NCBI GenBank assembly: GCA_021816625.1
Contig: JAKAXM010000004.1
Span: 62,001-126,000 of the forward strand
Direction: 5' to 3'
DNA length: 64,000 nt
Source of the DNA: Pseudomonadota bacterium
GTDB taxonomy: Bacteria > Pseudomonadota > Gammaproteobacteria > Acidiferrobacterales > Acidiferrobacteraceae
In this document: piece by piece, positions 22,690-36,046 of the stretch
How positions within the stretch are numbered: position 1 is the first letter of the stretch
Layout of the letters: each line of letters begins with the position of its first letter
Made by a program: the position numbers and the translations under genes
The notes under the pieces: model-generated
What the model was told of the DNA's origin: nothing
Seen by the model: only the letters and a program-made list of their open reading frames with translations
The model's database searches: none

Positions 22690-22719
22690 GCGTCCTGTAA
22701 CTATAACGATACAGGACGC
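22690..22719. repeat. 10-bp perfect inverted repeat with 10-nt spacer (GCGTCCTGTA-actataacga-TACAGGACGC)
   Basis: Direct reading; TACAGGACGC is the exact reverse complement of GCGTCCTGTA. Confidence 0.9.
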
Positions 22720-22941
22720 GCTCACTCTAAACACCTTACGAAAAATAGAAACCCCTTCTAAGCGCCGGCAGTGCCGGCGCCCCCCTGTCACGGATATGAG
22801 ACGGTCGAACCCCGGCCGTCGGCCACCCCGGGATTTTCCTGGGTGCGGCCTTACAGTCGCGGCCGTTTGGGGCCTTCCGCGTGATGTGCCGATACCGAGC
22901 GAACCCATCCCTTTCAAGGGCTTAACGAGTCACGAGCCCTA

Positions 22942-22958
22942 TTGGCATGGTTTTTGTT
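22942..22958 (+). promoter_or_regulatory. Predicted sigma-54 (-24/-12) promoter upstream of the amyloid operon
   Basis: TTGGCATGGTTTTTGTT versus consensus YTGGCACGRNNNTTGCW: GG (22944-22945) and the -12 dinucleotide (22956-22957) are 12 nt apart, with one mismatch in each element. Confidence 0.7.
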
Positions 22959-23012
22959 AATGGGCATGCCCGAGGCGCACGAAGGGCAGTATGCCCGGGA
23001 CGCCACATCACG

Positions 23013-23630
23013 ATGGACCTGATTATGAAAACGGCCCTGCTCTTTGTGATCGGACTTACGGTCCCCGTACTCGCGGGTGCCAAGGGGCTTGCACGCCCCC
23101 CCGCCGTCGCGCACAACGCCGCGATCCTTGCGGGCGCCACTTTGAGCGGAGGTCGGGGCTTGGCCACGATCAACGAGGCATCCGGCCATGGCAACGTGCA
23201 GGCCAACGCCGACGCCATCGCCCAGGGAGGCGCGGCGGTCGCATCGGTCCACCAGCACCTCACCGGCACGGTCGCGGGACTCGCCGCTGACAGCGCCGTG
23301 ATCGGCGGTCAGGCCTTCGCCCGTTTTGCCGGCATCCTGGATATCAATCAGGCGGCTGGGAGTAACAACGCCGAGGCCAATAGCATGACGCTCGCCCGCT
23401 CCCTGCGTCCTTTGAGTCTTAGTGCGCTGACCAGGATCGCGCCGCCCATCCGGGCGGTAAATCACACCCAGGTAAGGTCGGGATCGGCGGGTGCTTCACG
23501 TAGCGTGACGGTATCCCAGGAGGCGCTCAAGGGCGTCACGGGGATCGCCCAAGTGACGCAGGCGGCCGGTTCCGGAAATACCTTGAGCAATAGCGTCACC
23601 GTAAACATATCTGCGGGCATACGTCCGTAG
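23013..23630 (+). CDS. Secreted Fap-like small repeat protein (candidate minor or nucleator subunit)
   Basis: Signal peptide MKTALLFVIGLTVPVLAGAKG; three imperfect repeats GLATINEASGHGNVQANADAIA / GILDINQAAGSNNAEANSMTLA / GIAQVTQAAGSGNTLSNSVTVN. Start taken at 23013 (or 23025) because the ORF-track ATG at 22947 lies inside the predicted promoter. Confidence 0.65.
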   Translation: MDLIMKTALLFVIGLTVPVLAGAKGLARPPAVAHNAAILAGATLSGGRGLATINEASGHGNVQANADAIAQGGAAVASVHQHLTGTVAGLAADSAVIGGQAFARFAGILDINQAAGSNNAEANSMTLARSLRPLSLSALTRIAPPIRAVNHTQVRSGSAGASRSVTVSQEALKGVTGIAQVTQAAGSGNTLSNSVTVNISAGIRP

Positions 23631-23641
23631 GGGTGCAAGAA

Positions 23642-23665
23642 GGCTGGCTTTAGCAGCCGTTTTTT
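23642..23665 (+). terminator. Weak hairpin plus T-tract (candidate attenuator)
   Basis: GGCTG-gctttag-CAGCC-g-TTTTTT between the small repeat gene and the FapC-like gene. Confidence 0.45.
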
Positions 23666-23685
23666 AACTTGAAAAGGAGAGGTGT

Positions 23686-25923
23686 ATGGCAATTCAACGG
23701 AAACTCCGCACCATCGTGGTAGCCGTCGGCATGGCGCTCGCGGCCCCCGTGGTCGTGGCCAAGACGACCGGTGTTGCAACCGCGAATGCAAACAGCAGTC
23801 AAATGGCCGGCGGGTCCATTGACTTTGCTCAGGGCACGGTCAATAGCGCTACCGTCAGCAATAACGTCCTGCAAAACGCTAAGGGCAACATAGGCGTGAA
23901 CATCGGTGCCGGTAGCGGCAACATGCAGGGCAACAACACCGATATCGCCTACACCAACGGCTCCCTGACCCGTCATACGAGCGACGTCGCAAGCGTCGCG
24001 AGCATGCAGTGGGGCAATGCCTTCGCCCTGAGCCTCTCCGAAGGCGTCACCAACACCGCAAGCGCCGCCGACAACGTCCTGCAGAACGCCTCCGGCAACA
24101 TCGGCGTAAACGTGGCCTCCGGCAGCGCCAACATGCAGGTGAACAGCACCGCCCTGACCCATAGCAATGGGGTGCTGCCAGGCGGCGTGGCCGATGCCAC
24201 CGCGACGAGCCTCCAGGGGATGGGCCCCTTGGGCCTCGCGGGCACCGAAGGCGATAACGACAGCGCCTCGCTTTCAAACCACGTCCTACAGGATGCCTCC
24301 GGCAATATCGGCGTAAACGTCGCCGCGGGCGATCAGAACATGCAGGGTAACGCGCTTGCGGTCGCCTACAACAATGGCGGCGTGACCGCCTACGCCGGCG
24401 CGGCCAGCATGCAGATGGCCGGATTGATCGGTGCCTTGACAATCGCGGCCGACAACGACGCGACCTTGTCAAACCACGTCCTGCAGAACGCCTCCGGCAA
24501 TATCGGGGTCAACGTCGCAGCCGGTGTGCAGAACATGCAGCACAACGGCCTCTCGGTCGCCACCGCTAATGCCGTGTATCCCTTCTCGCCCACCGTCACG
24601 AGCGGCGCAAGCGTGGCTGCGGTGAACAACGCCCAGTCGGCAGGCGCCCTAGCCGGTAGTCTCAACATGGGTTCCGACAACGACGCGAGCCTCGCAAACC
24701 ACGTCCTGCAGAACGCCTCCGGCAACATCGGCGTAAACGCCGCTGCCGGCACGCAGAACATGCAGTCCAACGGGGTTGCGATGGCGACCGGTCTTACGAC
24801 CGAATCGGCGGGCGCAGCCACGACCACGGTGGGCAACGCCCAGGCCGTCGGACCCTTGGGCGGTTCTTTGAGCCTCGGGGGCGACGATGACGCCTTTCTC
24901 ACCAATGGCGTCCTGCAGAACGCCTCCGGCAATATCGCGGCCAACGTCGCAGCCGGCGCCGACAATATGCAGGCCAATAACGTGGGCTATGCGTTTAACC
25001 ACGCAGGCCAGAGCGCCACGTCTGTGATCGACAACGATCAGGGGACCGAGGGTTTCGATGGGGATGCCGCGCTTTTGTCGCTTACCGCCTACGGCAACGA
25101 CCACGCCTACCTGAACGACCATGTCCTGCAGAACGCCTCCGGCAATATCGGGGTCAACGCCGCCGCCGGTCAATGGAACGGGCAGGCCAATAATCTGGCC
25201 ATAGCCACGGCCGCTGGCGCTGTAAACAGCACCACGACCGCGACGGCCGGCATCGCCGACAACCAGGCGAGCAATATGAGCCTCGAGTGGCTGCCGTCGG
25301 TCGCGTTTAGTGTGAGCGGTGTTATGCGGGCCTCGCTGTCCGACAAGGTCCTGCAGAATGCCTCCGGCAACATCGGCGTAAACGTGGCCTCCGGCGTGCA
25401 GAACGTACAGGCCAACAATACGGCGCTTGCCTTTGGTGATGGTACCGGTACCGGCGACATGGACGGTGACAACACCGGTGGGCCGGCGGTGGCCAGCATT
25501 ACCGGGCGTCAGCTATCGGGACCCTACTCCATGGCCGCGAACATCGGTTCCACGAACAGCGCGAGCGTTGCCAATGACGTGCTGCAAAACGCCGCCGGCA
25601 AGATCGGGGCGAACGTGGCGGCCGGCGTCCAGAACATGCAGAGCAATGATCTGGCCTACGCCTTCAACCAAGCGGGCAGCAATGCCAGCGCGTCGACCGA
25701 GGTCTCGCAGGTATCGTTGGGCGCCATCGCCACGGATCAGCCAGTCAGCTTCTATACGGGCGGCGACATGGACTCCGACAACTCGGTCACCGTGCCTGTG
25801 ACCAACACGGCGGAGGTCTCCAACAACGTCCTGCAGAACGCTTCGGGCGACATCGGGCTAAACGTCGCGGCGGGGGCTGCCAATATGCAGCGCAACACCC
25901 TGACGATCGCGGACGCCGACTAG
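23686..25923 (+). CDS. FapC-like functional amyloid protein with 10 imperfect repeats
   Basis: Signal peptide; motif (N/D)xVLQNASGNIGVNVAAGxxNMQxNx occurs 10 times (starting near 23863, 24075, 24279, 24474, 24700, 24907, 25119, 25345, 25576, 25821). No cysteine found on reading the translation. Confidence 0.85.
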   Translation: MAIQRKLRTIVVAVGMALAAPVVVAKTTGVATANANSSQMAGGSIDFAQGTVNSATVSNNVLQNAKGNIGVNIGAGSGNMQGNNTDIAYTNGSLTRHTSDVASVASMQWGNAFALSLSEGVTNTASAADNVLQNASGNIGVNVASGSANMQVNSTALTHSNGVLPGGVADATATSLQGMGPLGLAGTEGDNDSASLSNHVLQDASGNIGVNVAAGDQNMQGNALAVAYNNGGVTAYAGAASMQMAGLIGALTIAADNDATLSNHVLQNASGNIGVNVAAGVQNMQHNGLSVATANAVYPFSPTVTSGASVAAVNNAQSAGALAGSLNMGSDNDASLANHVLQNASGNIGVNAAAGTQNMQSNGVAMATGLTTESAGAATTTVGNAQAVGPLGGSLSLGGDDDAFLTNGVLQNASGNIAANVAAGADNMQANNVGYAFNHAGQSATSVIDNDQGTEGFDGDAALLSLTAYGNDHAYLNDHVLQNASGNIGVNAAAGQWNGQANNLAIATAAGAVNSTTTATAGIADNQASNMSLEWLPSVAFSVSGVMRASLSDKVLQNASGNIGVNVASGVQNVQANNTALAFGDGTGTGDMDGDNTGGPAVASITGRQLSGPYSMAANIGSTNSASVANDVLQNAAGKIGANVAAGVQNMQSNDLAYAFNQAGSNASASTEVSQVSLGAIATDQPVSFYTGGDMDSDNSVTVPVTNTAEVSNNVLQNASGDIGLNVAAGAANMQRNTLTIADAD

Positions 25924-25934
25924 GCGTTATGGTG

Positions 25935-25967
25935 GCGGGCGGGGGTTCGCCCCCGCCCGCTTTTCTT
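25935..25967 (+). terminator. Strong rho-independent-type terminator hairpin within the amyloid operon
   Basis: GCGGGCGGGGG-TTCG-CCCCCGCCCGC followed by TTTTCTT: 11-bp stem, TTCG loop, T-rich tail. Confidence 0.85.
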
Positions 25968-25986
25968 AACCAAAGAGGAAGACGAC

Positions 25987-26673
25987 ATGCCGTACCGCCT
26001 GGGGTTATCGCTGCTGGCCCTCGTGCTTATGCCGGGTTTGGCGCGCGCGGGAACGGTCGTGTTCAACGGTTTCGGCGGCGTGCCCATCATGCGGCATGTC
26101 ACCAGTATTCGCGGACTTGAGTTCCGCGGCGTAGTGCGCCAGCGCACCGATTACAGCTGCGGGGCGGCGGCCATCGCGACCATCCTTGATTTCGCCTACG
26201 GACGCCGTCTGTCCGAAGATCAGGTGATCGTGGGGATGCTGAAGGTCAGTAATCGCAAAGTCGTAAAGCAGAAGGGGTTCTCGATGCTGGACATGGCGCG
26301 CTATCTCGCGCGCCTGGGTCTGCACGGGGCTGGCTACAAGATATCGCCGACGCTCTTGCCGAGCCTACGCGTGCCTGTGGTCGTGCTCCTGAACATCAAG
26401 GGTTACGAACACTTCGTCGTGTTAAAGGGCGTGGTCGCGGGCCGCGCCTTTCTCGCGGATCCCGAGTTTGGGAACCGCAGCATGGCCGTGGGGACATTCA
26501 TAAAGGATTGGGACGATGTCGTGTTCATCGTCATGGGTCCGCATTATGACAAGGCCACGCCTTTGCGGGCCCACCTAAAGGCCGTGCGCGTCCATGGTCT
26601 GTTGGCGGCCATGGAACGCAGCGAGACGCGGAATTTGCGGGAATTCGGTTTTATTCCCGCTACCGATTTCTAA
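25987..26673 (+). CDS. Periplasmic C39-family cysteine peptidase (FapD-like)
   Basis: Signal peptide; QRTDYSCGAAAIATILDFAYGRRLSEDQV; KGYEHFVVLKGVVAGRAFLADPEFG. No ABC transporter domain. Confidence 0.85.
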   Translation: MPYRLGLSLLALVLMPGLARAGTVVFNGFGGVPIMRHVTSIRGLEFRGVVRQRTDYSCGAAAIATILDFAYGRRLSEDQVIVGMLKVSNRKVVKQKGFSMLDMARYLARLGLHGAGYKISPTLLPSLRVPVVVLLNIKGYEHFVVLKGVVAGRAFLADPEFGNRSMAVGTFIKDWDDVVFIVMGPHYDKATPLRAHLKAVRVHGLLAAMERSETRNLREFGFIPATDF

Positions 26674-26676
26674 CGA

Positions 26677-27468
26677 TTGTCGAATAGAGGTATGGTCATG
26701 GGTGTAAGGACGGCGAGCGGGAGCAGGTATCTGACCGTGATCACGGTTCTCGGGGTGGCGTGCGCGGTCGCGGTGGCGCAGGCGGGGACCTTGACGAGCC
26801 GCGATGTAGGGGCGGTGATGGGCGCAACGCCCCTGTCGGCCCGCACGCTCGCTACCTTGCGCGGCCGCTACGTGGCGACCGACGGTGTCGTCTACTTCGG
26901 TCTCGAACTCGTAAGCCGCTGGACGCAGGCCAATGGCTCGGGGCTTACCGTTGGTACCAATGTCAATCTCGGTATCCAGGGCGACGGCCGTCCCGCGCTT
27001 ACGGTTGGCAGCTTTGCCCATGAAACCGGCGGCCGCGGCAGCCCGCAAGGTCCTTCCGCTGGCACTATTACGGGTAACCCCATTGCCGGGGTCGATGGCA
27101 TAGGCCAAGGTATACAGACCACTGGCAACGACAATGTCATCAAAAATACCGCCGTGATTAACCTCGGCGCCGGAGCGACCGGGACCTCGGGTCACACCAA
27201 CGGTCCGCGCGACATCTCGGTTGCCACCGCAGGCGGCGAGGGCCAAGTCGCCTTCAACCCAAGCGGCGTTACGATCGCCATCGCGGTTCCTGGCCAAGGC
27301 CTGATTCAACAGACACTAGGCACCCAAGGTCTGGGGCAGAGTGCCCAGGTGCTATCGAGCGCCAATACCGTTTTGAATCAGATGAGTCTGAACGTGGGCT
27401 TCGGTAATGCCGGCGGGTTTTCCGCGGCACAGCTGGGCGCCATCCTGGGGACCTTGAAAGGTCTCTAG
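26677..27468 (+). CDS. Secreted FapE-like protein
   Basis: Signal-like N-term; LATLRGRYVATDGVVYFGLELVSRWTQANG; Gly/Asn/Gln-rich body; position after the C39 peptidase matches fapE in Pseudomonas fapABCDEF. Start could be 26698. Confidence 0.55.
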   Translation: MSNRGMVMGVRTASGSRYLTVITVLGVACAVAVAQAGTLTSRDVGAVMGATPLSARTLATLRGRYVATDGVVYFGLELVSRWTQANGSGLTVGTNVNLGIQGDGRPALTVGSFAHETGGRGSPQGPSAGTITGNPIAGVDGIGQGIQTTGNDNVIKNTAVINLGAGATGTSGHTNGPRDISVATAGGEGQVAFNPSGVTIAIAVPGQGLIQQTLGTQGLGQSAQVLSSANTVLNQMSLNVGFGNAGGFSAAQLGAILGTLKGL

Positions 27469-27552
27469 CATCGTCAGGTCATGGGGGAGGGGGCCGATTC
27501 GCCCGGCGAGGCGGACGGCATCGATGGTTAACGAGCGATCCAGGTTTGCGTC

Positions 27553-28767
27553 ATGTCGTATCAAGCGGTGGGGGAAGGGATGGCGCAGGTGCCCCGTAGG
27601 GCCCCTGCAGCGCCCGTGCGGTCGCCGGCTCCGGTAATGCTGATCACCGGGACCCGGCCGGACATCATAAAGACAGCGAGCGTCGTTCATGCCCTGGCCC
27701 AGGCGCGATGCGCGTCGTCGGTCGTACACAGCGGGCAGCATGCCGACGGTATCTCCGAGCTCTATCGCTTTTTCGAGCTCGCGCCTGCCGCGAGCATCGA
27801 TCTCGGCCCACGGGGTCCGCAGCTCGCCGATCTCACGGCGCGCCTGCTCGCCGGCCTCGATCCGATTGTGGCGCAGCTACGGCCCGCGATACTGGTCGTG
27901 CAGGGCGATACCACAACGGCCCTGGCCGGCGCCCTGCTCGGTTTCTACCATCGCATCCCGGTGGCCCACATCGAAGCCGGTCTGCGCTCCGGGGACCCGG
28001 GCGAACCTTTTCCGGAGGAGGTCAATCGCCAACTGATAACGCGGCTGGCCGCCTGGCATTTCGCGCCTACGCCGCTTGCCGTCGCCTGCCTGCGTAAGGA
28101 GGGCGTACCCTTGAAAGCGATCACCATGACTGGCAATACGGTCGTGGATGCGGCCTTGTTCGGTTATCGGCGCCTGGCCGCCGGCACCGCCGCGGCGGCC
28201 CCGGCGGTCCGCCGCATCCTCGTCACGGCCCACCGTCGCGAAAACTGGGGCGCTGGGATCGCGGCGATTGGCGCGGGCCTGTGTCAGGTGATCGAGCGGT
28301 TCCCGGATGTCGAAGTCCTCTGGCTACGACACCCCAATCCCGAGGTGGCCGGCGCGGTTGACGCGATTGCGCGCCAGGCGCCGGCCCATGTGCGCGGCCG
28401 TCTTCATATCGCGGCCCCGCTCAGCTATCCCGACATGCTGCAAGCCTTACGGGACGCCTGGCTGGTCGTGACCGACTCTGGGGGGTTACAGGAAGAGGCC
28501 GTGACGGCGCGGGTCCCGGTCCTCATTGCTCGGCGTCAGACCGAGCGACCCGAGGTCGTGCACTGCGGGGCCGGCCACTTGATTGGGGCAGACGCGCGTC
28601 GCCTCGTGACCGAGATCTCCCGTCTCTACCACGCGCCCGACAAATGGGAGGCCATGCGTCCGGCCCAGTCGCCGTTCGGTGACGGCACAGCCGGCCAGCG
28701 GATCGCGACCGTGCTCGCGAGATTCCTGCAGACACGTCCCGCGCGCGGTCGAAGGGCGGCCTCATGA
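27553..28767 (+). CDS. wecB: UDP-N-acetylglucosamine 2-epimerase (non-hydrolysing, WecB-like)
   Basis: PVMLITGTRPDIIKTASVVHAL; VVQGDTTTALAGALLGFYHRIPVAHIEAGLRSGDPGEPFPEEVNRQLITRLAAWHFAPT; TDSGGLQEEAVTARVPVLIAR...TERPE. Confidence 0.9.
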   Translation: MSYQAVGEGMAQVPRRAPAAPVRSPAPVMLITGTRPDIIKTASVVHALAQARCASSVVHSGQHADGISELYRFFELAPAASIDLGPRGPQLADLTARLLAGLDPIVAQLRPAILVVQGDTTTALAGALLGFYHRIPVAHIEAGLRSGDPGEPFPEEVNRQLITRLAAWHFAPTPLAVACLRKEGVPLKAITMTGNTVVDAALFGYRRLAAGTAAAAPAVRRILVTAHRRENWGAGIAAIGAGLCQVIERFPDVEVLWLRHPNPEVAGAVDAIARQAPAHVRGRLHIAAPLSYPDMLQALRDAWLVVTDSGGLQEEAVTARVPVLIARRQTERPEVVHCGAGHLIGADARRLVTEISRLYHAPDKWEAMRPAQSPFGDGTAGQRIATVLARFLQTRPARGRRAAS

Positions 28768-29537
28768 GGCGGATATGGCATACGGCACTGGCCGCCGCCG
28801 GCCTCATGATTGCGCCCTTGGTCGCGTATGCCCATGGGTGGGTGGGCGCCGGTGGATCCTTTTATGCCCTGACCCAGGGCTATGGCCATTTCGAGGGTAT
28901 CTACGCGCGCGGGGTCTTCGGGGAAGGATCCGACACGATCTGGAACTGGGAGGCCGACCACGGACGGATTTTTGGTTATGAAGAAAACTATGGCGTTTTC
29001 GGGGTCACCCAGACGTTCACATCTCGCTGGTACGGATATGCGAGCCTCGCCGCCAGCACCAACTCCGATGTAGTCCCGAGCCAGCGCATCGACGCGAGCC
29101 TCTCGTATAAGGCTTGGCCCGATAAGCGTCTGGTTGCGACCGCGGGCTATACAGGGATTGCCTTTCGCGATGGCCATCGTGACCACGGTTACTGGTTCAA
29201 TGTTACCGGCTATCTGCCGGATCGTTGGGTCGCCATGGCGGGTCACGGCTGGACCTTCAGTGACCCGGGTGCGGTCCTCGCGCAGCGCAGTTTCGTGGCC
29301 GCAGGCTACCAGCACAGTGGACATATGGAGGCCACGGTGCGTTATGGTTGGGGGGCCGAGGCCTATCTGCCGATCGGTCCGCAGCTCGCCCTCGTGGATT
29401 TCCATAGCCATACCCTGGCCTTCACCTGGCGTCAGTGGCTGGGGCGCCATTTTGGCACGGACGTCTATCTGGAGCGCTTCACGAGTCCCTATTACCAGCA
29501 GACGGGAGGAGCGATCGGTGTCTTCTATCATTTCTGA
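28764..29537 (+). CDS. YaiO-like outer membrane beta-barrel protein
   Basis: Signal peptide; alternating aromatic strands; VGAGGSFYALTQGYGHFEGIYARGVFGEGSDTIWNWEADHGRIFGYEENYGVFGVTQTF...GGAIGVFYHF with C-terminal Phe. Confidence 0.65.
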   Translation: MRRIWHTALAAAGLMIAPLVAYAHGWVGAGGSFYALTQGYGHFEGIYARGVFGEGSDTIWNWEADHGRIFGYEENYGVFGVTQTFTSRWYGYASLAASTNSDVVPSQRIDASLSYKAWPDKRLVATAGYTGIAFRDGHRDHGYWFNVTGYLPDRWVAMAGHGWTFSDPGAVLAQRSFVAAGYQHSGHMEATVRYGWGAEAYLPIGPQLALVDFHSHTLAFTWRQWLGRHFGTDVYLERFTSPYYQQTGGAIGVFYHF

Positions 29538-29619
29538 AAAGACCGGCGACATCCAGGAGGCGGCCCGCCGGGCCGGCTGGCGGGGCGGCACCATTCTGGC
29601 TCATCGTGGCTTGCGGATC

Positions 29620-30327
29620 ATGCCACATGAGCATTGGCAGCTGCGGATCTCCCTCCTTCTTGGGCCGGTAGCGGCGCTCGCCGTGCTCGCCGCGATGCCG
29701 CGCGTCATAGTGCCATTTTGGAACGCCGTCGAGCGTCTTTTGTGCGGCGCGCTTACGCCCGCCGTGGCGGTGGTCACCAAGCCCTATACCCTGCCCTGGC
29801 ACATGGTGCTCGCGATCGCGGTGCCACGTCTGGCGGCGGCAGGCCCGGGGCCTGCCGCCTGGCCTGTGGTTATGATACTCGCGGCCCTGGCGCTTTTGAC
29901 AGGCTATCTCTTGCGCCGCCGTTATCTACCCTTGGCGCTCGCGCTCTTTACGCTCGCCATCGTAGTGCTCATCGGGGCGCTTGCGTTTACACCGGTGCTT
30001 GCTCCCTTTCCTTATGTCTTGACCCGCTATACCCAGTCCATGCTGCTCATGGGGCTTGTGCTCATGTTCGTGACCCCCCTCATGCTCATGGTGATCTATT
30101 ATCCGCTCGATTTCAGTTTCCCAAAGAAGCTCGTCTTGACCGCCCTGTGCGTGGTGTGGCTGGCCGTGGCGCTGCCTTGCCAGTACTGTCTACAGGCCGT
30201 GGTGGTACACGATCTCGGCCTCATGGCCTTGCCCACCCTGTTTCTACTCACCGGTCTTTTGCTGGACATCATGGGGCTCGTCGCCCTCTATTCCTGGGGC
30301 ATGAGCTGGAGGTTGCGCGATGAATGA
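29620..30327 (+). CDS. Polytopic membrane protein of unknown function in an EPS module (possible GTG start at 29518)
   Basis: In-frame MPHEHWQLRISLLLGPVAALAVLAAMPRVIVPFW... with several predicted TM segments; coupled to the next gene (ATGA overlap). Confidence 0.7.
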   Translation: MPHEHWQLRISLLLGPVAALAVLAAMPRVIVPFWNAVERLLCGALTPAVAVVTKPYTLPWHMVLAIAVPRLAAAGPGPAAWPVVMILAALALLTGYLLRRRYLPLALALFTLAIVVLIGALAFTPVLAPFPYVLTRYTQSMLLMGLVLMFVTPLMLMVIYYPLDFSFPKKLVLTALCVVWLAVALPCQYCLQAVVVHDLGLMALPTLFLLTGLLLDIMGLVALYSWGMSWRLRDE

Positions 30328-31657
30328 CCAGGTTCACCATCTGGCGCCGGCGCTCGCGGCCCACGCAAGATTGATCGCAGTTTTGCAGCCGGTGGCCATC
30401 GTCATTATCGTATTTGTATTGATCTATGCCGTGCGCCATCTGTTCTTTACTTTGAATCGGCTGTTCGGTAGGCAGCGGCACCCCTATATCAACATTACCC
30501 AGGCCGATTGGCCTCCCGCCACCATCGTCATCCCCGCCCACAACGAGCAACAGGTCATAGCGCAGATCCTCGAGCGGGTGGTCAACGTTGACTATCCGCG
30601 CGACCGCCTCGCCATCGTCTGTATCGACGACCGGTCCACGGACGCGACACCCACCCTGCTCGATCGGTTCGCCGCCCGTTTTCCTGGCCGCGTAACGGTC
30701 ATACATCGTCCCGCCGACGCCTTGCCCGGCAAAGCAGCGGCCTTGGTCGATGCGACTGATATCATAACGAGCGATATAGCGCTCATATTCGACGCCGACT
30801 ATCTACCCGGGCCCGGTCTTGTGAAGCAACTCGTCGCCCCTTTCTTCGATCCCGAGGTGGGGGGTGTGATGGGGCGCGTCGTTCCGTTCAACAGCGACAG
30901 CAATCTGCTCACCCACCTGCTCGAATTGGAGCGGGCCGGTGGCTATCAGGTCGATCAGCAAGCGCGCTCGAACCTGCGCCTCATCCCGCAGTTCGGCGGC
31001 ACGGTAGGTGGCGTCCGCATGACGGCCTTGCGGCAAGTGGGCGGTTGGAATCCCTATGCGCTCGCCGAAGATACGGACATCACCTATCGTCTGGCGATCG
31101 CCGGCTGGAAGATCGCCTATCAGAATCGTTCCGAATGTTACGAGGAAGTGGTCGAGACCTGGCAAGCCCGTTACCGCCAGCTCCTGCGCTGGTCACGCGG
31201 GCATAATCAGGTATTTTTCCGCCATGGACTTGCCCTGCTGCGCTCTCCTCATATGACGCGCCGCCAGCGCTGGGACGGGGCGATGCTACTTGGCATCTAT
31301 GCTATGGCGCCTGTGTTGCTCACCGGCTGGCTTGTCTTGTACCTCTTGTGGCTCTGTGGGGATAACGGCAGCGGCTTACTGCTCATGCTCGCAGTCGTGA
31401 GTTACGGCACCTTCGGCAACGCCGCGGCCTTCTACGAGATCGCAACGGCTTTGCGTCTCGACGGCGAGCGGCAAAAGGTCAAAGGCGTGCCGCTCATACT
31501 CGTCGGGTTTTTCGTATCGACGTACGCGGCCACAGCTGGCTTTCTTGCGGCCTTGGGGGACGTCCTGCGGCCCGGACGAGTCAACTGGACCAAGACGCCC
31601 CGCTACCGTGCACCCAGCGGCCAATCCGGCGGCGCGACCGCCCCGACACGTCCCTAA
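30320..31657 (+). CDS. Processive family 2 glycosyltransferase (exopolysaccharide synthase-like)
   Basis: TIVIPAHNEQQVIAQILERV; CIDDRSTDATP; LIFDADYLPGPG (DxD); ALAEDTDITYRL (ED); RQLLRWSRGHNQ (QxxRW); N- and C-terminal TM segments. Confidence 0.9.
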   Translation: MNDQVHHLAPALAAHARLIAVLQPVAIVIIVFVLIYAVRHLFFTLNRLFGRQRHPYINITQADWPPATIVIPAHNEQQVIAQILERVVNVDYPRDRLAIVCIDDRSTDATPTLLDRFAARFPGRVTVIHRPADALPGKAAALVDATDIITSDIALIFDADYLPGPGLVKQLVAPFFDPEVGGVMGRVVPFNSDSNLLTHLLELERAGGYQVDQQARSNLRLIPQFGGTVGGVRMTALRQVGGWNPYALAEDTDITYRLAIAGWKIAYQNRSECYEEVVETWQARYRQLLRWSRGHNQVFFRHGLALLRSPHMTRRQRWDGAMLLGIYAMAPVLLTGWLVLYLLWLCGDNGSGLLLMLAVVSYGTFGNAAAFYEIATALRLDGERQKVKGVPLILVGFFVSTYAATAGFLAALGDVLRPGRVNWTKTPRYRAPSGQSGGATAPTRP

Positions 31658-31666
31658 GGAGATCTC

Positions 31667-32629
31667 GTGCTGATCTTGCTCCTTATTACCACCGCGCTCT
31701 TTGCCTTACCCCTGGCCCCAACCGCCGGCCTCTTCCTATGGCGGCGCCATGCCTTGGGCCCGCCGCAACTCTCCGAGGGGGCCTATACCCCCGACCACTT
31801 TGCGCGCACCCTCATAGGCAAGCTGCGCAGTCATTTACCTATTCTTGACGGCGCGCGCCCCCTTATCCAAGAACATCGTCTCGACGGCGAACCTTTGCTC
31901 GTCGTTCCGTCGACTGTGCACCGGATCGGATCAGATTGCATCAAAACGATGACCTACGCGCTTGGCGATATCACGCTCCCGGCGTCGCTGTCGTTCAAAA
32001 AGGAAGTCGCGGCAGAAGGTTCATTGCGATCCGGAGAAAACGGCCGTTATCGCGTGCTTTATTCTGCCGATATCTTGCATCTCGCCAAAAATTCCACGAT
32101 CATTCGCTGGTGCCACGCGGGTCGACAGCTCGTCATAGACGGTGGCGCGCAGATATTGGGGCGAGCCACTGCGAATGTACGGATGATCGTGGCGGCGCCC
32201 TGCATGTTCACATCCCTGACCGCCCCGGAGATCGTTATCGGCGACGGCGGGGAGGCACTGCCCGCGGAGGCCGGGGCCGGCGCGTTGGAGGTTTGGGTGG
32301 AGGAGGAGCGGGTTGTGCAGGGCGACCTCGCCCTGCCGGCCAACAGTCGTCACCGGGGATCCCTCAAGGCGCACGGTCGGCTACTCATCGGGGCCGACAG
32401 CATCGTGACAGGCGGACTTGTCTGTGACGGCGACATCTCGATAGGGCCGCGGTGCCGGATATGGGGTCCAGTGGTCGCCGACGGTGCGATAGAGATAGCC
32501 GGCGGCTGCGTCATCGGACGGCCAGGACGGCCGGCCTCGGTCGCCGGGGCGTCTGTCAGCGTGGTGACGCCGGGGCTTGTGTACGGCGCCGTGCACGCGA
32601 GTCATAGCGGCATAATATCTAATACATAA
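31667..32629 (+). CDS. Membrane-anchored bactofilin-like / polymer-forming beta-repeat protein
   Basis: N-terminal TM LILLLITTALFALPLAPTAGLFLWRR; C-terminal beta-helix pattern GSLKAHGRLLIGADSIVTGGLVCDGDISIGPRCRIWGPVVADGAIEIAGGCVIG. Confidence 0.6.
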   Translation: MLILLLITTALFALPLAPTAGLFLWRRHALGPPQLSEGAYTPDHFARTLIGKLRSHLPILDGARPLIQEHRLDGEPLLVVPSTVHRIGSDCIKTMTYALGDITLPASLSFKKEVAAEGSLRSGENGRYRVLYSADILHLAKNSTIIRWCHAGRQLVIDGGAQILGRATANVRMIVAAPCMFTSLTAPEIVIGDGGEALPAEAGAGALEVWVEEERVVQGDLALPANSRHRGSLKAHGRLLIGADSIVTGGLVCDGDISIGPRCRIWGPVVADGAIEIAGGCVIGRPGRPASVAGASVSVVTPGLVYGAVHASHSGIISNT

Positions 32630-32665
32630 TATTATAATAAACTTCTTAATAAGATAGGCCGCATA
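32623..32665 (+). promoter_or_regulatory. AT-rich island with candidate promoter upstream of the fapF-like gene
   Basis: Run ataatattataataaacttcttaataag containing TATAAT, in otherwise high-GC sequence; no convincing -35. Confidence 0.4.
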
Positions 32666-32707
32666 CCGGCCCGTTCCGATAGTCAACCGATACGAAGGAG
32701 CACGATC

Positions 32708-33772
32708 GTGCGCCCATGGCCTTATCGCACTGCCTCGGTGGCCCTGCTGCTGACGGGCGTCTTCGGGCGACCCGTCGTTGCGCATGCCGCCACGGCCCTC
32801 GGGGTGGAACATAAGCCCGGAACCCAGGAAAGCGTACAGGCGGTGTATCGCCAGCAAAACGCGCTCTTCAAGGCCGGCCAGATCATCCTGCAGCCCGGCG
32901 TGAGCTACGCGTACTCCGATAGCAACGCGCTGACCTTGAATGGTTTTCTCGCCCTGGGGGCGATCTTTCTCGGTCAGATCAATGTGAGTAAGGTGCAGAG
33001 CAATATCGAGACCTTGTCGCTCCAGGCGAGCTACGCGCCGACCAATCGGATGGAGTTGTCGGCGACCGTGCCCTATCTCGCGCGCCAGAGCAGCTACGAG
33101 TCCGTGGGCGTCAATGGGTCCAGCCTGCAGGCGAGCCAACAGGACGTAACCAACAAAGGCCAGATCGGCGACGCGAGCGTCGCCCTCTACTACCAGCTCG
33201 CCGGGGATAGCCGCGGTGGGGCAACGATCTGGAATTTGACCGCCAAAGGCCCAACGGGACGCAGCCCCTATGGCATCCCGGTGGTGACGCAGCCGCAAAA
33301 CAACAACCTAAGTTACCCGACATCGCTGCCGACCGGCAACGGCGTGTGGGCCGTTTCGACGGGCTTGTCGTTCATTCAGTCGCTAAGCCCGGCCATTCTG
33401 TTCGGAAGCCTGAGCTATACCTACAACATACCGCGGAATTTCGGGAATATATCGAGTACGACGACCCCGCAGTCCGGTGCCGTCGCGCCCGGCAACTCGT
33501 TTAGCTTAGGAGGCGGCACGGCCTTCGCCTTGAACCAGCGAATAAGCCTTACGCTGTCCATGGATGAGACCTTTATCGCGGCGACCCAGATCAAACCGCA
33601 GGGTGGAAGCTGGCAGACGGTGGTCGGCAGTAGCGGCAACGCCGCGGTTTTAAATCTCGGACTGTCCTATGCCCGCAGCCGTCATGTGACGATCGTGACG
33701 AATCTTGCGGTCGGCCTTACCAAAGATGCCCCGAACATCGATCTTAGCTTCACTATGCCGACGTCGTTCTAG
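32708..33772 (+). CDS. FapF-like outer membrane beta-barrel (amyloid secretion porin candidate)
   Basis: ILQPGVSYAYSDSNALTLNGFLALGAIFLGQINVSKVQSNIETLSLQASYAPTNRMELSATVPYLARQSSY; LTAKGPTGRSPYGI; LPTGNGVWAVSTGLSFIQSLSPAILFGSLSYTYN; C-terminal Phe. Confidence 0.7.
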   Translation: MRPWPYRTASVALLLTGVFGRPVVAHAATALGVEHKPGTQESVQAVYRQQNALFKAGQIILQPGVSYAYSDSNALTLNGFLALGAIFLGQINVSKVQSNIETLSLQASYAPTNRMELSATVPYLARQSSYESVGVNGSSLQASQQDVTNKGQIGDASVALYYQLAGDSRGGATIWNLTAKGPTGRSPYGIPVVTQPQNNNLSYPTSLPTGNGVWAVSTGLSFIQSLSPAILFGSLSYTYNIPRNFGNISSTTTPQSGAVAPGNSFSLGGGTAFALNQRISLTLSMDETFIAATQIKPQGGSWQTVVGSSGNAAVLNLGLSYARSRHVTIVTNLAVGLTKDAPNIDLSFTMPTSF

Positions 33773-33798
33773 GGCCGCAGTATTCGAGGGAGGATTCG

Positions 33799-35214
33799 GT
33801 GGCGGCAGAAGAGGTTAAGTACAGCACAGAGAACTTCGGTTTTCGCGGGGCCGCCGTTACGGAGCCGCGTTCGCTGCTCGTCTACTGTCCGACTAAGGCC
33901 CTGCCCTTTCAGGAGGGCGATCTCACGAGCCGGGGCTGGAACGTGACGCGCGTCAATACCTGGGCGGCGGCCCGCGCGCAGGTGGATCGCATGGGTGGGG
34001 GGGTGGGTGTCGTCTGCCTAGGGGACCTCAAGGATCGGGAAGTGGCCGATGCCGAGGCCCTGCTCGGCTATGCCGATAGCCGCTTTCGTTGGATCGCGAT
34101 CGCCGATCTCGCCTTCCTAAAGAGCGCGGTTGCCAATCACCTGATCAGCGAGTGTTGCCTGGATTTCCATATGGTGCCGGTCGATGTCCCGCGGCTTTTG
34201 CACAGCCTCGGGCATGCGCTTGGTATGGCCAATCTGAGCCGCCAGCGGGCCCGCGCACCCGCCGAGAACCGGTTCGAGAAGAACATTGTCGGCAATAGCC
34301 AGGCCATGAAGGCCACCTTTCTGCGTATCACCAAGATCAGCCAGTCCGATGCCCCGGTCTTGATCCAAGGTGAGACCGGTACGGGCAAGGAATTGTGCGC
34401 GCTCGCCATCCACGCCCATTCGGTCCGCGCAACGCGGCCCTTTGTCGCGGTCAATTGCGGCGCGCTTCCCGACAAGCTGATACAGTCCGAGCTCTTCGGG
34501 CATGAAAAGGGCGCCTTTACAGGCGCGCACCAGCGCAAGATCGGACGCATCGAGGCCGCCGAAGGCGGAACGCTGTTTTTAGATGAGATCGGGGATTTGT
34601 CCCTGGACCTCCAGGTCAATTTGCTGCGGGTATTGCAGGATGGGACCTACGAGCGCGTGGGGGGCACGGAGACGCAGCGCGCTGACATCCGTGTCATCGC
34701 CGCGACCCATGTCAATATCGAGAGGGCGGTCGAGGAGAAGCGGTTTCGCGAGGACCTTTATTATCGGCTGAACGTCTTGAATCTCGAGGTCCCCCCGCTG
34801 CGCTCCCGCGAGGGTGATGTCACAGTCCTCGCGCGCCACTGGTTCGACGTCTTTGCCGCAGAAAAAAACCCACAGGTGCGCGGCTTTAGCCGCGATGCCT
34901 TCGTGGCGCTCAGCCAACATCAGTGGCCCGGTAATGTGCGCGAACTCATCAATCGTGTGCGGCGCGCGATGGTCATGTGCGAATACCCGTTGATAGGCCC
35001 CGAGGATCTGGGGCTCGCGTACACGGGTTCCTATCGCGACGTCCCGGTCGAGGAGACGCTAATGGAGGCGCGCGAACGGGCCGAGCGGGAGGCGATCACG
35101 GGCGCCGTCGAAAAGAGCGGCGGCAATCTATCGCGCGCGGCGCGGGCCCTTGGCGTATCGCGCGTCACACTCTATCGTCTGCTCGACAAATACCAGATCC
35201 CCCATCGCGTCTGA
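33799..35214 (+). CDS. Sigma-54-dependent Fis-family activator with VpsR-like N-terminal domain
   Basis: AAA+ Walker A GETGTGKE; GAFTGA loop (GHEKGAFTGAHQRKIGRIE); GGTLFLDEIGDLSLDLQ; C-term Fis HTH NLSRAARALGVSRVTLYRLLDKYQI. Confidence 0.9.
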   Translation: MAAEEVKYSTENFGFRGAAVTEPRSLLVYCPTKALPFQEGDLTSRGWNVTRVNTWAAARAQVDRMGGGVGVVCLGDLKDREVADAEALLGYADSRFRWIAIADLAFLKSAVANHLISECCLDFHMVPVDVPRLLHSLGHALGMANLSRQRARAPAENRFEKNIVGNSQAMKATFLRITKISQSDAPVLIQGETGTGKELCALAIHAHSVRATRPFVAVNCGALPDKLIQSELFGHEKGAFTGAHQRKIGRIEAAEGGTLFLDEIGDLSLDLQVNLLRVLQDGTYERVGGTETQRADIRVIAATHVNIERAVEEKRFREDLYYRLNVLNLEVPPLRSREGDVTVLARHWFDVFAAEKNPQVRGFSRDAFVALSQHQWPGNVRELINRVRRAMVMCEYPLIGPEDLGLAYTGSYRDVPVEETLMEARERAEREAITGAVEKSGGNLSRAARALGVSRVTLYRLLDKYQIPHRV

Positions 35215-35236
35215 CGGCGCTACCGCTCCGGCGGAT

Positions 35237-36046
35237 CTAGAAGCCCACCATGACGTGCAATAGCTTCCGGTAGGGAAGGTAGGCCTGGTCTTGGACCGCC
35301 ACCAGGGATTTGTGTCCGAACATGTCACGTAAGGGCTTGGTTGCCGCCAGGCCCGCGGGGCTTAGGAGCGCCTGCACGATCTTTTGGCGCAAGGCCCGGG
35401 GTACGCGTGCATTGATCGAAAATCCTTGATTGGGGATGCCCGGGGCCCGATAGGCGATGGTGAGCGCCCCCGGGGAGCGCGCCGCCTGGCGCTTATAGAC
35501 CGGCAGTGGCTCGAGGGCGCCGACGCAGCCTCCCCCGATGATGTTGTGCGCGGCATCGGCAAAACTGTGGATGATGACATAGTAGGGTTGGCGGGCAGGG
35601 TTCGTAAACCAGCTATCAAGACGCAAGGTAGCGAGATTGGGCGGCGAGAAGGCGCATACGCTATGCCCCACGAGGTCTGTGATCTTGGTGATGGGCGGGC
35701 CGTTCTTTTTGGTGACCAGCACGAAATTGAGATGTCCGGCCAGTGCTACGGCCGCGTGATCATGAAAGTGCGCCACGCGCCAGCCGATGAAGGCGGGGCC
35801 ATCGAAGTAGATGTCGGCCGTATTGGCGCGCACGTCGGCCATATAGCTAAGCCAGTTACTCGTATAGTGAAAGACGATGGATGCGCCCGTCGCTCGCGTC
35901 AGGAAGCGCGCGATCTTCCCATAGACCGCCACCGCCTCGGCTCTATTCGCGCGGGGCGGGCTGATGAAGGTGTAGCTGCCCGTGGCAGCCCAGCTCGGCG
36001 TTGATGCCGACAACCATGCGATCGCAATGATCAGGACCCGTCTCAT
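35237..36046 (-). CDS. PhnD-family phosphate/phosphonate-type periplasmic binding protein
   Basis: Signal peptide; TFISPPRANRAEAVAVYGKIARFLTRATGASIVFHYTSNWLSYMADVRANTADIYFDGPAFIGWR; CAFSPPNLATLRLDSWF. Confidence 0.75.
   Translation of the reverse strand: MRRVLIIAIAWLSASTPSWAATGSYTFISPPRANRAEAVAVYGKIARFLTRATGASIVFHYTSNWLSYMADVRANTADIYFDGPAFIGWRVAHFHDHAAVALAGHLNFVLVTKKNGPPITKITDLVGHSVCAFSPPNLATLRLDSWFTNPARQPYYVIIHSFADAAHNIIGGGCVGALEPLPVYKRQAARSPGALTIAYRAPGIPNQGFSINARVPRALRQKIVQALLSPAGLAATKPLRDMFGHKSLVAVQDQAYLPYRKLLHVMVGF

Follow-up and report, generated by a model that had tools for sequence, protein, structure and literature searches.

A predicted exopolysaccharide cassette embedded in a variant Fap amyloid locus of an Acidiferrobacteraceae genome

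What is made by the five closely packed genes at positions 27553–32629 of a stretch of contig JAKAXM010000004.1, and do they form a unit of their own? The stretch, referred to here as the window, covers 64 kb of an Acidiferrobacteraceae genome (2.19 Mb, 99 % complete) whose genus is probably close to Acidiferrobacter, and the coordinates of all features at 22696–36046 are window positions. A first-pass annotation had named the genes as wecB, yaiO, orfX (a polytopic protein), a processive-type family 2 glycosyltransferase gene (gt2) and a bactofilin-like gene, and had proposed them as an exopolysaccharide module. All five open reading frames (ORFs) are present, and the identification of each was confirmed from the ORFs and from Pfam and NCBIfam profiles. 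The genes are tightly packed as described, but the unit is larger than was proposed: the block sits between fapE and fapF of an operon for Fap functional amyloid, which the annotation had missed.

Biofilm matrices have two main scaffolds, amyloid and polysaccharide, whose genes usually lie apart and are linked only by shared regulators. The reading we favour, with moderate confidence, is that 22942–35214 is a single hybrid biofilm-matrix operon encoding a Fap amyloid together with a polysaccharide machine. The flanking Fap genes, the gaps of 3–84 nt or overlaps between genes, the conserved gene order, the co-occurrence of GT2 and FapF and the recurrence of the cassette elsewhere all point in this direction. 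What is apparently new is a Fap operon carrying an embedded, seemingly undescribed synthase-dependent polysaccharide cassette; both kinds are otherwise known. An operon encoding both scaffolds would be a simple system in which to ask whether amyloid and polysaccharide assemble together, and if the hybrid-operon reading is true, the two main biofilm glues would be switched on together in acid-loving bacteria.

Layout and conservation of the locus

Proteins encoded at 22947–36046 were scanned with Pfam and NCBIfam profiles at their curated cut-offs (Table 1). Directly 5′ of the block are fapB, fapC, fapD and fapE, and 3′ of it are fapF and then the gene for a VpsR-domain sigma-54 activator. Within the block the junctions are −4 nt (wecB/yaiO), −20 nt (yaiO/orfX), −8 nt (orfX/gt2) and +9 nt (gt2/bactofilin-like), in agreement with the short overlaps described earlier, and all junctions from fapB through the activator gene lie between −20 and +84 nt. 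The overlap of 20 nt between yaiO and orfX follows from moving the orfX start to GTG 29518, the first ATG being at 29620. This start is very likely: GGAGG stands about 9 nt upstream, the genus genomes compared retain both the GTG and its GGAGG, distant homologues share the residues ahead of ATG 29620, and in one relative an in-frame TAG directly precedes the GTG. For fapB, a signal-peptide-like sequence and an upstream alignment indicate ATG 23026 as the likely start. No terminator-like site was found on the plus strand at the fapE/wecB or bactofilin-like/fapF junctions. The sole strong plus-strand case is a 12-bp G+C-rich hairpin with a T-rich tail at 25934–25961, between fapC and fapD, which could set a high ratio of amyloid subunit to downstream products.

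For the comparison with relatives, 96 genomes were used, 13 of them from the same genus, and 369 genomes of the class were searched for FapF at E≤1e-40. GT2 was found in 9 of the 13 same-genus genomes at about 79–80 % identity, and the order fapBCDE-wecB-yaiO-orfX-gt2-bactofilin-like-fapF-vpsR was identical in these nine, with two loci (L027 and L028) cut by contig borders. GT2 and FapF co-occurred across all 14 genomes of the genus, ten having both and four neither. FapF was found in 26/369 genomes of the class, and among these 26 the module was seen only in the two genus members sampled and in G317, a genome of another order. The hybrid order of G317 is the same, at 34–59 % amino-acid identity; this genome also carries a second fap locus of the ordinary kind that lacks the module, and GT2 was absent from the four other genomes of its order. 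The GT2s of the genus grouped with that of G317 (support 99), and the simplest reading would be that the hybrid operon was transferred horizontally as a whole. G014, a genome of a sister genus, carries fapBCDE-fapF-vpsR, and none of the module genes separates fapE from fapF. Rusticyanin-family matches, below the model cut-off, were present in 5/5 genomes of the order of G317; they would fit an iron oxidiser of acidic habitats, and Acidihalobacter is our guess at the name. For acidophilic iron and sulfur oxidisers, a hybrid operon would have a bearing on mineral attachment and bioleaching.

The fap genes of the window constitute a variant Fap locus. Homologues of FapB, FapC, FapD, FapE and FapF were found in the conserved order of the Fap system; only FapC passes its curated cut-off, and the other four match below theirs with E-values from 2e-23 to 4e-95. 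By reading, FapC carries about ten imperfect NVLQNASGNIGVNVAAG-type repeats; three are usual, with more reported for Acidithiobacillus and Vibrio, and fapA is absent in several genera (PMC3792158). The FapF match to NF058560 spans only positions 103–419 of the 420 in the model, SVQAVYRQQNALF follows just 15–20 residues or so after the signal peptide, and no N-terminal periplasmic coiled coil was found. Rouse et al. described this coiled coil in all FapF homologues and as essential for secretion (PMC6173795). Comparison of N-termini (loci including L160 and L162) indicated that FapF is without the coil throughout the genus, in the exopolysaccharide-linked locus of G317 and in G014, and that the second FapF of G317 has it. 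Since the coil is missing in G014 as well, its loss follows the FapF branch and not strictly the polysaccharide genes. In one same-genus genome (G012), two further partial matches to FapF lie on other contigs (L158 and L159).

Table 1. Features of the locus in window coordinates, with the evidence for each
Feature	Position	Strand	Evidence or remark
Palindrome TGTAACTATAACGATACA, candidate activator-binding site	22696–22713	.	Upstream of promoter
Sigma-54-like −24/−12 element TTGGCATGGTTTTTGTT	22942–22958	+	−12 reads TTGTT, not TTGC
fapB	23026–23630	+	NF058557 82.9 bits, cut-off 190; ORF listed from 22947
fapC, predicted major amyloid subunit	23686–25923	+	NF058558 215.6 bits, cut-off 195
fapD, C39-family peptidase	25987–26673	+	PF03412 above cut-off; NF058616 201 bits, below cut-off 330
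fapE	26677–27468	+	NF058559 91 bits, cut-off 250; position and synteny
wecB, non-hydrolysing UDP-GlcNAc 2-epimerase (predicted UDP-ManNAc supply)	27553–28767	+	TIGR00236 above cut-off
yaiO-like outer-membrane beta-barrel, candidate exporter	28764–29537	+	TIGR04390, PF19413
orfX, polytopic inner-membrane protein, no known family	29518–30327	+	GTG start; AlphaFold2
gt2, synthase of processive type	30320–31657	+	Motifs, Pfam, NCBIfam, tree
Membrane-anchored beta-solenoid, bactofilin-like	31667–32629	+	AlphaFold2; Pfam in relatives
fapF, amyloid export barrel without N-terminal coiled-coil region	32708–33772	+	NF058560 319 bits, cut-off 700
VpsR-domain sigma-54 enhancer-binding protein	33799–35214	+	PF20161, PF00158 above cut-off; intact GAFTGA

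Adjoining the operon on the minus strand (35237–36046) is a gene for a phosphonate-binding-type periplasmic protein, a neighbour retained in most genomes of the genus.

The polysaccharide block and its relatives

WecB scored 345 bits against the equivalog TIGR00236 (cut-off 210), and the positions that we take to be the catalytic residues of E. coli WecB (D95, E117, E131 and H213) are conserved on alignment with that protein. The gene is the only wecB found in the genome, so the supply of UDP-N-acetylmannosamine (UDP-ManNAc) to the module looks dedicated. Two nucleotide-sugar dehydrogenases are encoded elsewhere in the genome, neither linked to wecB and one closest to UDP-glucose dehydrogenases, and no member of the WecG family was found in the genome. 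The YaiO-like protein, a barrel of 257 amino acids (aa), belongs to the YaiO outer-membrane family (TIGR04390 119.5 bits, cut-off 32; PF19413 77 bits, cut-off 23.9). OrfX has no Pfam family; its AlphaFold2 model (pLDDT 90) is that of a helical membrane protein that includes a beta-hairpin. The model of the bactofilin-like protein (pLDDT 91) has an N-terminal helix at 2–29 followed by a beta-solenoid; for neither of these two proteins did Foldseek return a match in the PDB at E≤0.001. The bactofilin-like protein scored 18.0 bits against PF04519 (cut-off 27.9, E 0.0036), and 45 of 58 aligned relatives match this family at E≤1e-3; it is a relative of the bactofilin fold and is not counted as a member.

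The processive-type motifs and transmembrane segments claimed for the GT2 were read from the sequence: the protein (PF13641/PF13632) has DxD at 158–160, ED at 250–251 and Q287-R290-W291, with hydrophobic segments at about 18–36 and in the C-terminal third. In the tree, 48 module GT2s fell on one side of a branch (Shimodaira–Hasegawa-like approximate likelihood ratio test support 99) from ten references including PgaC, BcsA, NfrB and YaiP, and the grouping with a characterised synthase having the same operon, which the first-pass annotation had named as refuting its proposal, did not occur. As the references are few (HAS, Alg8 and verified NodC/PssC are not among them) and their branches long, the tree shows separateness and not nearest kin.

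The earlier view that the locus matches none of the cellulose, poly-N-acetylglucosamine (PNAG) and Wzy pathways was upheld, the GT2 scoring far below all equivalog cut-offs. The best-scoring equivalog was PgaC/IcaA of the PNAG systems PgaABCD/IcaABCD, where 117.7 bits were reached and the cut-off is 422, and no PgaA, PgaB or PgaD match was found among the module profiles. Against the cellulose (Bcs) equivalogs the GT2 reached 50–54 bits (cut-offs 699 and 992), with no BcsB match. No Wzx/Wzy flippase, polymerase or outer-membrane polysaccharide export (OPX) protein was found among the proteins scanned at 22947–36046, the rest of the genome not being searched, and the Rubrivivax EmbRS polysaccharide cluster, which is of Wzx/Wzy type, was rejected as a match. 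Membership of the Nfr system was likewise rejected: the GT2 has only glycosyltransferase-type domains plus sub-threshold Pfam matches, NfrB lies on a separate long branch, and the module YaiO profile has no match to NfrA. The YaiP system was rejected because of the profile cut-offs, its place in the tree and the absence of its partners. Among core proteins, the module profiles matched no Pga, Bcs or Nfr partner protein; E. coli YaiO was the only such reference partner matched, by the module YaiO profile (E 4e-7).

A profile search recovered at least 495 relatives of the GT2, and the best 80 of these came from Beta-, Gamma- and Alphaproteobacteria, Acidobacteriota, Gemmatimonadota, Rhodothermales and Sporomusa. 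Iterated profiles were run on 84 loci and counts taken from the 59 longer than 15 kb; as these were picked by closeness of the GT2, the co-occurrence figures describe this GT2 clade and not all GT2s. The bactofilin-like gene and orfX were present in 59/59 loci, yaiO in 57, wecB in 54 and all four in 52. The module proposed in the first-pass annotation thus recurs as a unit and is not peculiar to this genome, and since its gene order is conserved across species and phyla, the block is not a chance arrangement. In most genomes the cassette stands without fap genes. It occurs in Burkholderia, Ralstonia, Cupriavidus, Acidobacteriota and Gemmatimonadota and on an Escherichia plasmid, and hundreds of loci could be better annotated if its polymer were named. 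Literature searches combining YaiO with exopolysaccharide, bactofilin with an exopolysaccharide epimerase, and Acidiferrobacter with amyloid returned nothing relevant and no description of the cassette.

Two undescribed companion families accompany many of these loci (L017, L029 and about 40 others), each in 37 of the 59 long ones. F5 (about 330 aa) has conserved DADD and DNVE motifs and a weak resemblance to alpha/alpha-toroid proteins, while F6 (about 620 aa) resembles deacetylases, with matches to PF01522 at E≤1e-3 in 13 of 22 members. Neither occurs in the window locus, and neither was found in the hybrid operon of G317. Three Fap-free cassettes (L039, L060 and L090) have a GAFTGA enhancer-binding protein in the same stretch.

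Predicted expression, mechanism and alternatives

Upstream of fapB, the sigma-54-like element is conserved as TTGGCAYRGTTYTTGTT in 9/9 genus sequences, within a region that is otherwise divergent. TGT-N12-ACA palindromes lie about 160–260 nt upstream of the element, with similar positions in the 8 same-genus relatives examined. The genome has rpoN, and the activator has the domains of a VpsR/BrfA-type protein, namely VpsR (PF20161), AAA+ (PF00158, with GAFTGA) and a Fis-type helix-turn-helix (PF02954); a homologue stands beside most fap loci examined. In P. fluorescens, BrfA, an enhancer-binding protein that senses cyclic di-GMP (c-di-GMP), drives fap (PMC13101488). By analogy, control of the hybrid operon by c-di-GMP and sigma-54 is probable. 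A scan for sigma-70-type promoters gave no excess over shuffles and no plus-strand match.

The five-gene block is best read as a synthase-dependent exopolysaccharide system of ManNAc type, fed by WecB, which would operate in the manner of E. coli NfrB/NfrA/WecB without being a member of that system. At high c-di-GMP, the activator would bind the upstream palindromes and drive the putative sigma-54 promoter before fapB, giving co-expression of FapB, FapC, FapD, FapE and FapF with the five-protein machine. WecB would convert UDP-N-acetylglucosamine (UDP-GlcNAc) to UDP-ManNAc, and the GT2 would polymerise ManNAc, into a homopolymer or a ManNAc-containing chain, and extrude it through the inner membrane, aided by OrfX and the membrane-anchored beta-solenoid. 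YaiO would pass the chain across the outer membrane, the weakest step of the scheme, and polymer and fibres would be produced jointly to give a mixed matrix. NfrB-type chemistry fits a locus in which a single, apparently dedicated wecB adjoins a processive-type GT2 and no dehydrogenase is linked.

Several observations weigh against this reading. The −12 of the promoter element departs from TTGC. Neither upstream element is significant by window count: the sigma-54 pattern occurs 110 times in the window against 128 expected, with no excess, and TGTAACTATAACGATACA, with one exact match in 64 kb, has at least one match in 33/100 shuffles too. The G317 hybrid locus showed neither element with the patterns used. 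For these reasons the promoter is treated as putative, its support coming from cross-species conservation and not from counts. The hairpin between fapC and fapD could reduce expression of all genes downstream. YaiO is small and no periplasmic tetratricopeptide-repeat (TPR) protein is present, unlike PgaA, BcsC and NfrA. Finally, the polymer is predicted from genes only, and the sugar used by the GT2 is not readable from sequence.

A bolder interpretation, which we put forward tentatively and consider rather doubtful, is that the cassette represents a distinct, phylum-crossing class of synthase-dependent secretion (ManNAc polymer, YaiO exporter, dedicated solenoid and new polytopic partner) that has been built into an acidophile Fap operon with a coil-less FapF, amyloid and polysaccharide forming one composite fibre matrix.

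Of the alternatives, the one that survives best, although we judge it unlikely, is a genuine synthase-dependent system whose polymer is not ManNAc-based, WecB making a minor decorating sugar or serving another pathway and the GT2 polymerising GlcNAc or another sugar, like PgaC. PgaC/IcaA is indeed the best NCBIfam equivalog for the GT2, and no wecB was seen within the DNA examined in 5 of the 59 long loci, but the score is far below the cut-off, the module GT2s form a separate clade, no PgaB or PgaD match was found among core proteins and the other 54 loci do carry wecB. It is still less probable that the product of the five genes is a glycan linked to the cell surface or to Fap fibre subunits. 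Such a glycan would fit the fact that the block is tied genetically to amyloid genes in two orders, and also the small YaiO barrel without a periplasmic TPR partner, which suits free polymer poorly; however, the same cassette stands without fap genes in most genomes, Pfam and NCBIfam revealed no oligosaccharyltransferase, ligase or lipid-carrier enzyme in it, and the QxxRW motif and membrane segments of the GT2 are typical of processive synthases. The least probable case is a purely positional junction, in which the cassette landed in the fap operon and is expressed independently or not at all; the usual absence of fap beside the cassette and the fap locus of G014 without a cassette are compatible with it, but the order is kept in ten genus genomes and in G317 despite the low identity there, with reading frames open throughout, perfect GT2/FapF co-occurrence in the genus and operon-type gaps and overlaps.

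Comparison with known systems

For the hybrid-operon reading, a functional precedent is the E. coli NfrB-NfrA-YbcH system with WecB, the N4 glycan receptor. The NfrB-made glycan needs WecB and not WecC, a ManNAc polymer has been proposed, and NfrB/NfrA are a precedent for WecB feeding an exopolysaccharide-making GT2 with UDP-ManNAc as the inferred substrate (PMC8669469, PMC8669472). The predicted WecB-supplied UDP-ManNAc, the DxD/ED/QxxRW motifs of the GT2, an outer-membrane barrel and a probable c-di-GMP link are shared, and the WecB of the window is linked, an equivalog and the sole copy in the genome. In contrast, the GT2 has no MshEN domain and lies on a distant branch, no NfrA or YbcH homologue is found among the core proteins, and YaiO, OrfX and the beta-solenoid are present instead.

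The E. coli yaiO-yaiX-yaiP-yaiS locus also has a YaiO barrel adjoining a GT2; however, YaiP shows an identity of only about 26 % across 219 aa and falls outside the module clade, and that locus has no wecB, orfX or bactofilin gene. Listeria Pss (PssC GT2) is likewise a c-di-GMP-dependent GT2-based exopolysaccharide system whose operon fully matches neither PNAG nor cellulose, but it employs PssD, which is BcsB-like, and the GGDEF receptor PssE (PMC4125290), and the cassette has neither; the Listeria GT2 match, a candidate PssC, is 28.7 % identical. An uncharacterised cluster on the E. fergusonii conjugative plasmid pRHB18-C04_2 (L018, 2581–9206) has bactofilin, wecB, YaiO, hypothetical protein and GT2 genes (GT2 45 % identical) in one run, in the order bactofilin-wecB-YaiO-hypothetical-acyltransferase-F5-GT2; it differs in the added acyltransferase and F5-type genes and has no fap genes in the stretch examined. 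This plasmid cassette lies near fimbrial-type regulators.

The Pseudomonas Fap operon (fapABCDEF) shares with the window homologues of FapB, FapC, FapD, FapE and FapF in the same order and an adjoining enhancer-binding protein. The locus described here differs in the absence of fapA, in the five polysaccharide genes between fapE and fapF, in a FapC with about ten repeats and in a FapF without the coiled coil.

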